A DNA stretch of 64,000 nt. Source: Methylobacillus flagellatus. Lineage in GTDB: Bacteria; Pseudomonadota; Gammaproteobacteria; Burkholderiales; Methylophilaceae. Under the pieces are notes generated by a model, which saw nothing but the letters and a program-made list of their open reading frames with translations, made no database searches and had not been told where the DNA came from. Shown piece by piece: positions 834 through 37,684 of this stretch; within the stretch, counting starts at the first letter, position 1; each line of letters starts with the position of its first letter. The stretch covers positions 1 through 64,000 of the forward strand of contig NZ_SCOU01000002.1 in assembly GCF_005502435.1 (NCBI RefSeq), given 5' to 3'. Position numbers and translations under genes: made by a program.

Positions 834-1841
834 CTAGTGATCGCGGCTGACAGCAAATTCGGCCAGTTGCAGCATCGCATCACGGTAAGCCGAGGCGGGT
901 AGGTGCTGTATGCAGGCGCACGCCTGTTCTGCTTCCTTCTGCGCCACGGCACGTGCATGCGCCAATGCGCCGGTTTCCTGCACTGCTTGCAGCACGGCCG
1001 TCAGCTGTTCCAGTCCGCCTTGTTCGATGGCGTTGCGTACCAGTTCACGCTGCACGCTGTTGCCGTGCTGGATCACATACAGCAGCGGTAGCGTGGGTTT
1101 GCCTTCTGCCAGATCGTCACCGAGGTTCTTGCCGATCTCGTCCGGGTCGCCACTCAAGTCCAGCACATCATCGATCAGCTGGAATGCCGTGCCCAGGTGC
1201 ATGCCATAGTCGGCCAGCGCTTGCTGGTCCTGCGCGCTGGCACCGGCAGTCAGAGCGCCCAGGCGCGTCGCCGCTTCGAATAGCTTGGCTGTCTTGTAGT
1301 GGATGACCTTGAGGTAATCGGCCTCGCTGATGCTGGCGTCATTGCAGTTGAGCAGCTGCAATACCTCGCCCTCGGCGATGATGTTGGTCGCTTCCGCCAG
1401 GATCTGCATCACCTGCATGTTGCCTACGCCTACCATCATCTGGAACGCACGCGAATAGACGAAATCACCGACCAGTACACTGGCGGCGTTACCGAACAGG
1501 CTGTTGGCGGTCTCGCGACCGCGGCGCAGGCTGGATTCATCCACCACATCATCATGCAGCAGTGTGGCGGTATGGATGAACTCCACCACTGCCGCCAGGG
1601 TGTGTTGTTGCTCGGTGATGTGGCCGAATGCGCCTGCACTCAGCAGCACCAGGGCAGGCCGCAGGCGTTTGCCGCCACTGTGGATGATGTAGTCAGCAAC
1701 TTGTCTGACCAGCACGACCTCGGAATGCAGGGAAAGGCGGATGACGCGATCAACAGCCGCCATGTCGTCAGCGACGCAGGCGTTAATAGGGGCTAGGGAC
1801 ACGATAACGACAGCCTGAAATAAGTATCCGGATTTTACCAC
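834..1841 (-). CDS. ispB: Octaprenyl diphosphate synthase
   Basis: Trans-polyprenyl diphosphate synthase that extends farnesyl diphosphate with isopentenyl diphosphate to make the ubiquinone side chain. Visible motifs are GGKRLRP (residues 56-62), the first aspartate-rich motif DDVVD (97-101, followed by RRGR) and the second, DDVLD, near residue 217. At up to 335 residues it is slightly longer than usual. The first codon is a GTG at 1841; another GTG at 1802 would give a 322-residue protein closer to the family length and is equally plausible. It is divergent from rplU-rpmA, the classic proteobacterial arrangement. Confidence 0.95.
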   Translation of the reverse strand: MVKSGYLFQAVVIVSLAPINACVADDMAAVDRVIRLSLHSEVVLVRQVADYIIHSGGKRLRPALVLLSAGAFGHITEQQHTLAAVVEFIHTATLLHDDVVDESSLRRGRETANSLFGNAASVLVGDFVYSRAFQMMVGVGNMQVMQILAEATNIIAEGEVLQLLNCNDASISEADYLKVIHYKTAKLFEAATRLGALTAGASAQDQQALADYGMHLGTAFQLIDDVLDLSGDPDEIGKNLGDDLAEGKPTLPLLYVIQHGNSVQRELVRNAIEQGGLEQLTAVLQAVQETGALAHARAVAQKEAEQACACIQHLPASAYRDAMLQLAEFAVSRDH

Positions 1842-2013
1842 AGCGCTTTGCTGCTCATCGGGCTTGCTGATCCGGCGGCTGAGGCATGTGGCGGCAAGCG
1901 CCTACCTAGGTTGACTTGTGCGCTATCTGCAGGTGTAATCGAGCTTGTTGCGGGCGCGCTGGATGGCCCCGCAGTTCGTGCAGCGTCACGGCAAATTATC
2001 TGTACAAAGCCGT

Positions 2014-2041
2014 TTGCTTTGCCGCGTAGTTTGCGTATAAT
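2014..2041 (+). promoter_or_regulatory. Sigma-70 promoter of rplU-rpmA
   Basis: TTGCTT at 2014-2019 and a perfect TATAAT at 2036-2041 are separated by 16 bp. They lie 40 bp upstream of the rplU start in the ispB-rplU divergent gap, as expected for a strong ribosomal protein promoter. Read from sequence only. Confidence 0.75.
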
Positions 2042-2080
2042 GCGCGATTCATTTGAATGCGTAGCAAACGAGGCATAACC

Positions 2081-2428
2081 ATGTATGCAGTCATCAAGAC
2101 CGGCGGCAAGCAGTACCGTGTAGTCGCTGGCGAAAGATTAAAAGTAGAAAAACTGATCGGTGAAGTCGGCAGCGACATCACGATCGACCAAGTGTTGATG
2201 CTGGCTGACGGCGAGAACGTCACCATCGGCGCACCTCTGATTGCTGGCGCAAGCGTGCAAGCCAAGGTGCTGTCCCACGGCCGTGGCGACAAGGTGATGA
2301 TCTTCAAGATGCGTCGTCGTAAGCACTACCGCAAGACGCAAGGTCATCGTCAGGACTACACCGAAATCCAAATCGGCGATATCGCGACCAAGCCAGCCAA
2401 AGCGGCCAAGGCTAAAGCGGCAGAATAA
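2081..2428 (+). CDS. rplU: 50S ribosomal protein L21
   Basis: L21 binds 23S rRNA in the large subunit with L20. The start [14 protein letters not shown] is the family signature, which fixes the ATG at 2081 rather than an in-frame codon 24 nt upstream. The basic [17 protein letters not shown] block near residues 72-88 is the conserved RNA-binding region. At 115 residues it carries a short Ala/Lys-rich tail beyond the usual 103 residues. It is followed after 10 nt by rpmA in one operon, behind a clear promoter. Confidence 0.98.
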
Positions 2429-33482: not shown

Positions 33483-35693
33483 TTAAACCGCTTCCAGCTT
33501 GGCATATTCCAGTGCCAGCCACTTCAGGCCTTCGCGGCCAAAATTGACCTGCACGCGCATGTCGTTGGCATTGCCTTCGTAACTCACCACCACGCCCTGA
33601 CCGAACTTGGCATGCGCGACCGACTGACCTATCTTCCAGGGCATCGCACTCTTTTGTTCCCCACTCGTTTTACCCATCACCTTGGGCATGGCGTTGTAAT
33701 CCTGCCCGTAGCCGGAGCGCGCGACTGGTTTGGCATTCAGGCGCTTGATCAGCTCATCCGGGATCTCATCCAGAAAGCGTGATGGAATGCCGTAGCGCAC
33801 CTGACCGTGCAGCAGACGGCTTTGCGCATAGCTCAAATACAGACGCTGGCGCGCACGCGTCACCGCCACATACATCAGGCGACGCTCTTCTTCCAGCCCG
33901 GCCGCTTCATACAGGCTTTGTTCATGCGGGCATAGACCTTCTTCCAGCCCGCTGATGAACACCACCTTGAATTCCAGGCCTTTGGCGGCGTGCACCGTCA
34001 TCAATTGCAAGGCTTCGCGCCCGGCCTCGGCCTGATGCTCGCCAGCTTCCAGGCTGGCATGGGTGAGGAACTGCGTGAGCAGTGACTGTGCCACTTCGCC
34101 GTTCTCGTCCACCTGTACGCCGATCTCCTGATTGGTGAACGCCACGGCCGCGTTGATCAGCTCATCCAGGTTGGCGATGCGGTCTTCGCCTTCTTTTTCG
34201 CTCTGATAGAAGGTGCGCAGGCCGGACAGCCCGGTCGCCAGCTCTGCCACTTCCGGCAGCGTAATGCCAATGGCCTCTTCCTGCATCTGCTTCACTAGCG
34301 CCACAAAGCCCGGAATGCCCTTGGCCTTGATAGCGTCGCCCTTGCCTGCGGCTTGTAGCGCGGCTTGCCACAGACTGCCACCCAGGCTGCGTGCGGTTTC
34401 CTGCAATTGTTCCAGGCTGCGTGCGCCTATGCCGCGGGTAGGGAAGTTGATCACGCGCAACAGCGCGGTGTCGTCATGCGGGTTGGCGATCAGCCGCATA
34501 TAAGCCAGCGCATGCTTGATCTCGGCGCGTTCAAAGAAGCGCAGGCCGCCGTAGACGCGGTAGGGCAGGTTGGCCGAGAACAGCGCATGCTCCAGCACGC
34601 GGGACTGCGCATTGGAGCGGTACAGCAGCGCCACTTCGCCCAGGCCATGGCCTTCGGCATGCAGCGACTTGACCTCGTCGACGATGAAGTTGGCCTCGTC
34701 GATGTCGTTATAGGCTTCGTAGACGCGCACCGGCTCGCCCTTGCCCGCGGCGGTCCACAGGTTCTTGCCCAGACGGTTGCGGTTGTGGGTGATGATGGCG
34801 TTGGCGGCATCCAAGATGTTGCTGTAGGAGCGGTAGTTCTGCTCCAGCTTGACGATGCTCTGTACCGCGAAATCACGCTCGAAATCGCGCATATTGCCGA
34901 CGCGTGCGCCGCGGAAGGCGTAGATGGACTGGTCGTCATCGCCCACCGCAAAGATGCAGTTGCGCCCGCTGGCCTGCTGCTCGCCCGCCAGCAGCTTCAA
35001 CCACAGGTATTGCAGACGGTTGGTATCCTGGAACTCGTCCACCAGGATGTATTTGAAGCGGCTCTGATAATGCTGGCGGATGGTGCTGTCGCGGCTCAGC
35101 AGCTCGTAGCAGCGCAGCAGCAGCTCGGCGAAATCCACCACCCCTTCGCGCTGACACTGCTTGTCATATTCCTCGAAGATCTCGCGCATGCGTTGCGAGT
35201 GGGCGTCATAGGCCTCCACCGCATGTGCACGCAAGCCTTCTTCCTTGCAACTATTGATGTAACCCATCACCTGCTTGGGCGGGTACTTCTCGTCATCCAC
35301 GTTCATGGCCTTCATCAGGCGCTTGATCGCAGACAACTGGTCGGCGGTGTCAAAGATCTGGAAGGTGGCAGGCAGCTGGGCCTCGCGGTGATGGGCGCGC
35401 AGCAAGCGGTTGCACAGGCCGTGGAAGGTGCCTACCCACATGCCGCGTGTGTTGATGGGCAGCATGCCGGTCAGCCGCGTCAGCATCTCCTTGGCGGCTT
35501 TGTTGGTGAAGGTCACCGCCAGCAAGCCCAGCGGCGACACCTGACCGGTCTGGATCAGCCAGGCGATACGCGTGGTCAGCACGCGGGTCTTGCCGCTGCC
35601 AGCGCCAGCGAGGATCAGTGCGGATTGATGGGGAAGGGTGACCGCTTCGAGTTGTTTGTCGTTGAGGCCGTCGAGCAAAGTGGATGCATTCAT
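33483..35693 (-). CDS. uvrD: UvrD-family DNA helicase
   Basis: A 736-residue superfamily 1A helicase for mismatch and nucleotide excision repair. Walker A is ILAGAGSGKTRVLTTRIAW (near residue 28), Walker B is VDEFQDTN (near 215), and VGDDDQSIYAFRGA and VTRARQRLYLSYA are later helicase motifs. Length is close to E. coli UvrD (720). Rep is a close alternative, but overall length and C-terminal tail favour UvrD. The gene starts at 35693, opposite a small-RNA candidate on the plus strand. Confidence 0.93.
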   Translation of the reverse strand: MNASTLLDGLNDKQLEAVTLPHQSALILAGAGSGKTRVLTTRIAWLIQTGQVSPLGLLAVTFTNKAAKEMLTRLTGMLPINTRGMWVGTFHGLCNRLLRAHHREAQLPATFQIFDTADQLSAIKRLMKAMNVDDEKYPPKQVMGYINSCKEEGLRAHAVEAYDAHSQRMREIFEEYDKQCQREGVVDFAELLLRCYELLSRDSTIRQHYQSRFKYILVDEFQDTNRLQYLWLKLLAGEQQASGRNCIFAVGDDDQSIYAFRGARVGNMRDFERDFAVQSIVKLEQNYRSYSNILDAANAIITHNRNRLGKNLWTAAGKGEPVRVYEAYNDIDEANFIVDEVKSLHAEGHGLGEVALLYRSNAQSRVLEHALFSANLPYRVYGGLRFFERAEIKHALAYMRLIANPHDDTALLRVINFPTRGIGARSLEQLQETARSLGGSLWQAALQAAGKGDAIKAKGIPGFVALVKQMQEEAIGITLPEVAELATGLSGLRTFYQSEKEGEDRIANLDELINAAVAFTNQEIGVQVDENGEVAQSLLTQFLTHASLEAGEHQAEAGREALQLMTVHAAKGLEFKVVFISGLEEGLCPHEQSLYEAAGLEEERRLMYVAVTRARQRLYLSYAQSRLLHGQVRYGIPSRFLDEIPDELIKRLNAKPVARSGYGQDYNAMPKVMGKTSGEQKSAMPWKIGQSVAHAKFGQGVVVSYEGNANDMRVQVNFGREGLKWLALEYAKLEAV

Positions 35694-35770
35694 GCCGTGA
35701 TTATCGCAGGTCGGGCTGGGGATGAGAAATGCAGTTGATGGAACTTGCAGCCGAGCAGGCTGGTCACAGA
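35694..35770. other. Gap between the uvrD start and the small-RNA candidate
   Basis: This 77-bp part of the 332-bp uvrD-groEL gap has no coding frame. It must carry the uvrD promoter on the minus strand and a promoter for the plus-strand transcript. I see no convincing sigma-70 pair for either. The rest of the gap holds the RNA candidate, the groEL terminator and the groEL 3' flank. Confidence 0.5.
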
Positions 35771-35875
35771 AGCAGACGACAAAACATCGTCTCCTGCTTT
35801 TCCTCCCTGAGCAGGAAGCTTCAGTAATGAAGCTTTATTACCCCGATTTTATCCCCTTTAATCGGGGTTTTTTTT
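35771..35875 (+). ncRNA. Candidate small RNA with an anti-Shine-Dalgarno loop
   Basis: Four stem-loops follow one another without gaps. Stem 1 pairs AGACGA with TCGTCT (35774-35792). Stem 2 pairs CCTGCT with AGCAGG (35793-35815) and its loop displays TCCTCCC (35801-35807), complementary to ribosome binding sites. Stem 3 pairs AAGCTTCA with TGAAGCTT around a GTAA tetraloop (35816-35835). Stem 4 is a plus-strand terminator (35841-35875). No plus-strand gene precedes that terminator, so a separate transcript is implied. I found no clear promoter, so the 5' end is uncertain. Confidence 0.65.
35841..35875 (+). terminator. Rho-independent terminator on the plus strand, with no upstream gene
   Basis: CCCCGATT (35841-35848) pairs with AATCGGGG (35860-35867) and eight T residues follow. 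On the minus strand the T run is missing. Both flanking genes lie on the minus strand. Confidence 0.85.
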
Positions 35876-35900
35876 GCCTGTCGTGTATGGGGTGCGCAAT

Positions 35901-35928
35901 AAAAAGCCCCGCACTAGGCGGGGCTTTT
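35901..35928 (-). terminator. Terminator of groESL
   Basis: On the minus strand GCCCCGC (35924-35918) pairs with GCGGGGC (35912-35906) around a 5-nt loop and is followed by five T residues. It lies about 100 bp after the groEL stop. Confidence 0.85.
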
Positions 35929-36025
35929 CGTTTGTTACGACTTCAGGTGTGACAGGTCAGTCAAGACCAGTTGCATCATGCCGCGCCATTGATTGCGATG
36001 GTCGGCAAGAGGATGCAATTCAAAA

Positions 36026-37684
<1,659 letters not shown>

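Follow-up and report, generated by a model that had tools for sequence, protein, structure and literature searches.

The closest described relative of the RNA considered here is the Rfam family RF02837, anti-hemB (Burkholderia RNA 7). Its member ncS04 of Burkholderia cenocepacia is 105 nt long and was detected on Northern blots, with a 3' end confirmed by RACE; its level did not change significantly in any of seven conditions (PMC5688073). Binding of ncS04 by Hfq has been reported, according to PMC5688073, which cites Ramos et al. 2013 for it. An anti-hemB RNA of B. pseudomallei was listed in 2012 (PMC3521395). The family is widespread, yet the literature searched ascribes no role to it, and we found no functional study of anti-hemB or ncS04 there; most subscription journals lay outside that search.

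Other small RNAs (sRNAs) share parts of this design. The double-hairpin Betaproteobacteria toxic sRNAs of RF02278 (ncS27/bdhR1, ncS03, ncS05 and ncS62) and Bordetella S17 carry CU-rich, anti-Shine-Dalgarno-like unpaired stretches and their own terminator, and S17 pairs with ribosome-binding regions (PMC11722255). The sX13 RNA of Xanthomonadaceae (RF02232) consists of successive hairpins whose apical loops, that of the terminator among them, are C-rich. Mutation of these loops has established that they repress mRNAs carrying G-rich motifs close to the start codon, and sX13 acts independently of Hfq (PMC3771888). The sigma-E sRNAs are represented by MicA, RybB and MicL in Enterobacteriaceae and by ErsA in Pseudomonas (sigma-22/AlgU).

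An anti-hemB RNA between uvrD and groEL

The window is a stretch of 64,000 nucleotides from Methylobacillus flagellatus, and its features are listed in Table 1. In the intergenic stretch between uvrD and groEL (35694-36025), no plus-strand gene runs into the plus-strand terminator, both neighbours lying on the minus strand, as a preliminary description of this DNA had noticed. A scan of the whole window with Rfam returned a single match, RF02837 (E = 7.6e-14), which covers the complete model and scores above the gathering score that defines membership. Adjacency to hemB, which is in the name of the family and not in its definition, is absent at this locus. The preliminary description had stated that no such RNA was known in this family of bacteria; the RNA is in fact anti-hemB. 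The sRNA at this locus is therefore real and already catalogued, and, as judged from the literature searched, the novelty lies in its sigma-E-type promoter, its terminator-loop motif and the range of the family.

Table 1. Features of the uvrD-groEL intergenic region and its flanks (window coordinates)
Feature	Position	Strand	Remark
uvrD	33483-35693	minus	divergent neighbour of the sRNA
Candidate sigma-70-like promoter of uvrD, TTCTCA-N17-GATAAT	35700-35728	minus	adjoins the sRNA, not part of it
-35 element GGAACTT, sigma-E/RpoE (ECF) type	35740-35746	plus	11/11 match together with the -10 element
-10 element TCACA (in GGTCACA, 35762-35768)	35764-35768	plus	17 nt after the -35 element
Predicted sRNA, about 102 nt	35774-35875	plus	start inferred from promoter spacing; fold z = -6.9
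Hairpin H1, AGACGA...TCGTCT	35774-35792	plus	largely outside the Rfam model; 6/6 pairs change on both sides, 96% of cells paired
RF02837 anti-hemB match, full model 1-81	35790-35875	plus	68.3 bits, gathering score 49.5
Hairpin H2, loop UUCCUCCCU	35793-35815	plus	presents the C-rich loop; 5/6 modelled pairs change on both sides (set not loop-selected)
Seed 1, UCCUCCC in the H2 loop	35801-35807	plus	anti-Shine-Dalgarno-like; nearly invariant
Hairpin H3, GUAA tetraloop	35816-35835	plus	stem 7/7 pairs covary
Intrinsic terminator, hairpin 35840-35868 and 8 U (35868-35875)	35840-35875	plus	main helix 100% of cells paired, stem covaries
Seed 2, UCCCCUU in the terminator loop	35852-35858	plus	conserved while the surrounding stem covaries
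Second terminator hairpin, AAAAGCCCCGC...GCGGGGCTTTT	35902-35928		just downstream of groEL; neighbour, not part of the sRNA
groEL	36026-37660	minus	other flank of the sRNA

The predicted transcript folds as three consecutive hairpins followed by the terminator (-38.4 kcal/mol, with none of 200 shuffled sequences folding as well), which agrees with the three stem-loops proposed in the preliminary description. The span given there, 35771-35875, was right at its end and began 3 nt upstream of the predicted transcription start at about 35774. Loss of the stems in related genomes had been named as an outcome that would speak against an RNA, and the stems proved to be conserved. When 66 sequences were aligned with MAFFT alone, paired cells made up 90.8% and both sides changed in 23 of the 27 pairs, with 0 of 500 shuffles reaching these values on any measure; sliding the partner by one column lowers pairing to about 50%. 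A model-fitted alignment of 91 loci, a set not selected by loop sequence, gave 96.6% paired cells and 25 of 27 pairs changing on both sides (0 of 500 shuffles), although this kind of alignment leans towards structure. Support for H1 equals that for the remaining helices, even though it lies largely outside the Rfam model.

The locus thus shares with RF02837 and ncS04 a full-length match, the H2 loop, H3, the terminator, an intergenic position with its own terminator and a similar length (102 nt predicted here, 105 nt measured for ncS04). It differs in its neighbours, uvrD and groEL instead of hemB and engB, in the extra 5' hairpin H1 that precedes the Rfam model, and in its terminator loop, UCCCCUU here and plain U in Rfam. 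Membership in RF02278 was rejected at 25.8 bits against a cut-off of 50. That family shares the CU-rich unpaired stretches, the terminator and the pairing with ribosome-binding sites (predicted here), but has two hairpins and several copies per Burkholderia genome, against four hairpins and one copy here. The second terminator hairpin in the same intergenic stretch is probably groEL's own, on the minus strand. Between 35700 and 35746, the uvrD promoter candidate on the minus strand and the -35 element of the sRNA on the plus strand stand back to back with 11 bp between them, and might interfere with each other.

A conserved sigma-E-type promoter and the proposed regulation

The sigma-E/RpoE consensus consists of GGAACTT with a TCnnA-type -10 element. 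The sequence GGAACTT-N17-TCACA upstream of the sRNA (35740-35768), which the preliminary description did not contain, matches it fully, and across the 2.38 Mb of the genome the strict pattern GGAACTTN{15,17}TCWNA has a single match, at the sRNA. We scored 142 non-redundant homologous loci on an 11-point scale, with random windows from the same loci as controls. A sigma-E-type site of at least 9/11 was present upstream of 115 of the 142 loci, against 0.7% of control windows (24/25 in the relatives and 62/81, 17/20 and 12/16 in the other sampling groups). The distance from site to loop is narrow, -57 to -64 in most loci, and the -10 element of the homologues is mostly TCTTA, TCTNA or TCATA, with C at the second position in 120 of 126. 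The genome encodes RpoE (313 bits). A site of the same form, TGAACTT-N-TCTTC (TGAACTTTTGCGAGTGTAGCGCTGTCTTCA), lies upstream of its rpoE (L205, about 1280 of the reverse complement), which suggests that rpoE is autoregulated; rseA/rseB-like ORFs follow rpoE there. Among the features expected of a sigma-E-dependent sRNA, an RpoE-type promoter at the right distance, its conservation and an encoded RpoE are present. Hfq is encoded as well (97.2 bits), and the long U-tail of the terminator is a potential Hfq 3'-end site.

From the computed family membership, fold, covariation, loop and promoter conservation and the presence of the RpoE and Hfq genes, we regard it as likely that this member of RF02837 is a trans-acting, sigma-E-dependent sRNA of about 102 nt that, with the assistance of Hfq, uses two loops to block G-rich ribosome-binding sites on envelope stress. 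We infer that the sigma-E-type promoter drives transcription, that Hfq binds the RNA in this organism and that translation is repressed; the identity of the targets is a matter of inference as well. On envelope stress, RpoE would switch on the sRNA from its promoter, and the transcript would end at the terminator with Hfq sitting on the 3' U-tail. UCCUCCC in H2 and UCCCCUU in the terminator loop would then base-pair with target mRNAs at their G-rich ribosome-binding regions and prevent translation, which would make the RNA a counterpart of the enterobacterial sigma-E sRNAs MicA and RybB. Blocking of translation is plausible by analogy, and outer-membrane mRNAs are suggested as targets by analogy only. 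With MicA, RybB, MicL and ErsA the RNA has in common a predicted RpoE/AlgU-type promoter, a single short sRNA and predicted pairing with ribosome-binding sites; no sequence relation to these RNAs was found. In particular, the ErsA/Pseudomon-1 model reached only 15.8 bits and the class-level homologues match RF02837 and not ErsA; a relation to ErsA was rejected. The Hfq part of the proposal is weakened by sX13, the best-studied analogue with C-rich loops, which is Hfq-independent (PMC3771888). Through a conserved sigma-E promoter, anti-hemB would have envelope stress as its condition and RpoE as its regulator, along with a class of targets that can be tested. The Methylophilaceae are important methylotrophs, and their sigma-E regulon would include the sRNA as a predicted member.

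The RNA might also block ribosome-binding sites in trans while being expressed constitutively or under another sigma factor, with the GGAACTT site unused in this organism. About 11% of homologues (16 loci with a low score) lack a sigma-E-like promoter, and 10 of these 16 carry a sigma-70-like promoter of at least 8/12, found in 4.2% of controls (binomial P about 1e-10). They include a Rhodoferax metagenome-assembled genome (L066), whose sigma-70-like promoter differs from the sigma-E-type promoter of the window. In some Burkholderiales one promoter type seems to have replaced the other, so the RNA can live under other promoters. The unresponsiveness of ncS04 in seven conditions (PMC5688073) also counts for this alternative and against sigma-E control. 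At this locus, however, the sigma-E-type match is complete, no sigma-70-type site was found on the plus strand upstream of the sRNA, and the sigma-E-type element is kept in 24 of the 25 loci of relatives. We therefore hold control by another factor to be unlikely here.

C-rich loops and the search for targets

The preliminary description had seen TCCTCCC in the loop of the second hairpin, and this seed is indeed there and nearly invariant. The motif CCTCCCTG is found in the H2 loop of 56 of the 60 order-level and 24 of the 31 class-level homologues, with a mean of 0.2 in shuffled sequences. With covarying stems and the CCUCCCUG loop kept in those 56 of 60, the earlier proposal of a small regulatory RNA whose exposed loop resembles an anti-Shine-Dalgarno sequence is well supported. 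A second C-rich loop, absent from the preliminary description, lies in the terminator, where TCCCCTT is present in 53 of the 60 order-level homologues (shuffled mean 1.0, maximum 5). Selection of the loci does not explain this motif, because they were retrieved with RF02837, a model with plain U in its terminator loop. The conserved motif suggests that the terminator hairpin also serves as a second site for targeting. The GNRA tetraloop assigned to the third hairpin exists here as GUAA, but is found in only 2 of 91 homologues; the H3 loop is variable and the tetraloop was rejected as a functional motif.

Possible targets were sought in the own genome as exact complements (GGGAGG, GGAGGAAA and AGGGAGG) before ATG codons. 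The 7-nt complement of seed 1, AGGGAGG, occurs near ATG at 9 sites, none of them a convincing gene start, so that target recognition must involve pairing that is shorter or imperfect, or else seed 2. The 6-nt GGGAGG was found before ATG 43 times against 30 in the control, barely above it, and GGAGGAAA 2 times against 3. Of the GGGAGG sites inspected, just one stands at a convincing gene start, that of a gene for an RND efflux adaptor-like lipoprotein (L237, G000:C2:142298-142314), whose ribosome-binding site, TTGGGGAGG, is partly complementary to both C-rich loops. The lack of a convincing target from the exact-complement searches is the main weakness of the proposed mechanism.

This lack would fit a general damper of translation, in which the loop, as a mimic of the 16S rRNA 3' end, would titrate Shine-Dalgarno sequences broadly and not select particular mRNAs, as might be imagined for the 'toxic' RNAs of RF02278. 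CCUCCC does resemble the anti-Shine-Dalgarno CCUCCU, and overproduction of related RF02278 RNAs inhibits growth (PMC5688073). The RNA stays below the RF02278 cut-off, however, and the related S17 is not toxic in E. coli (PMC11722255). Conservation moreover runs past the Shine-Dalgarno core (UCCUCCCUG), and the RNA keeps another motif of different sequence as well, which suggests specific pairing. General damping is in our judgement improbable.

Distribution, genomic neighbourhood and possible kinship with sX13

The own genome contains one copy of anti-hemB, and no plasmid copies were found. The RF02837 cut-off was exceeded in 32 of 41 relatives, in 104 of 150 genomes of the order (about 70%) and in 10 of 185 genomes sampled across the class, many more of which have matches under it. 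A model built from the 66 order-level sequences and including H1 (R1) retrieves all class-level loci with E of about 1e-21 to 1e-7. The order is therefore not the limit of the anti-hemB family, which probably also occurs in other Gammaproteobacteria as GTDB defines them.

Methylophilaceae have uvrD on one side of the RNA and, mostly, groEL on the other. Elsewhere a divergent hemB typically stands on the left and engB often on the right, as recognised by eye from sequence motifs and not by family search. An element acting in cis, as antisense or leader RNA, on the neighbour (uvrD or groEL here, hemB elsewhere) could be read from the constant position of the RNA near, and divergent from, a gene, and from the name anti-hemB taken from the neighbour. 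However, the RNA does not overlap a neighbouring coding sequence, and the neighbours differ by lineage (uvrD/groEL or hemB/engB) while promoter and RNA stay together, so that the unit is best read as trans-acting. Cis action was rejected on this changing synteny, and we consider it very improbable. That there is no functional RNA, only a chance run of hairpins beside the groEL terminator, is refuted by the Rfam match, the covariation, the conserved loops and promoter and the detection of a homologue on Northern blots (PMC5688073), and its probability is negligible.

The class-level homologues around or below the Rfam cut-off (L176-L203) have three C-rich loops, in H2, H3 and the terminator, and mostly a sigma-E-like promoter; CCCC is found in the H3 loop of 22 of 31 class-level homologues and in the terminator loop of 17 of 31. 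This is the layout shown to matter in Xanthomonas sX13 (PMC3771888). Among 20 class-level loci scanned against Rfam, none matched another family better, and one also gave a weak sX13 match. The class-level homologues look intermediate towards sX13; the RF02837 model seems to be drawn too narrowly, and a link to RF02232 is possible. The RNA of the window is itself not an sX13 member, as no RF02232 match was found at E up to 5 in 35600-36050 and none in the own genome. R1 reaches sX13 at only 17-19 bits, and no sigma-E-type promoter was seen upstream of sX13 at two loci. A broader reading, which is quite possible and which we advance tentatively, is that anti-hemB is an ancient sigma-E-driven regulator of envelope stress in Beta- and Gammaproteobacteria, with multiple anti-Shine-Dalgarno seeds in the C-rich loops of a body hairpin and the terminator. 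It would be the counterpart of MicA and RybB where those are absent, would have acquired a housekeeping promoter in some Burkholderiales, and would form one superfamily with sX13.

In several class-level and some order-level genomes, anti-hemB-like RNAs stand in tandem with a spacing of about 200 bp, like sibling sRNAs. Four copies were found in L253 (about 1500-2265, minus strand) and two each in L169, L172, L179, L187, L196, L258 and L259.
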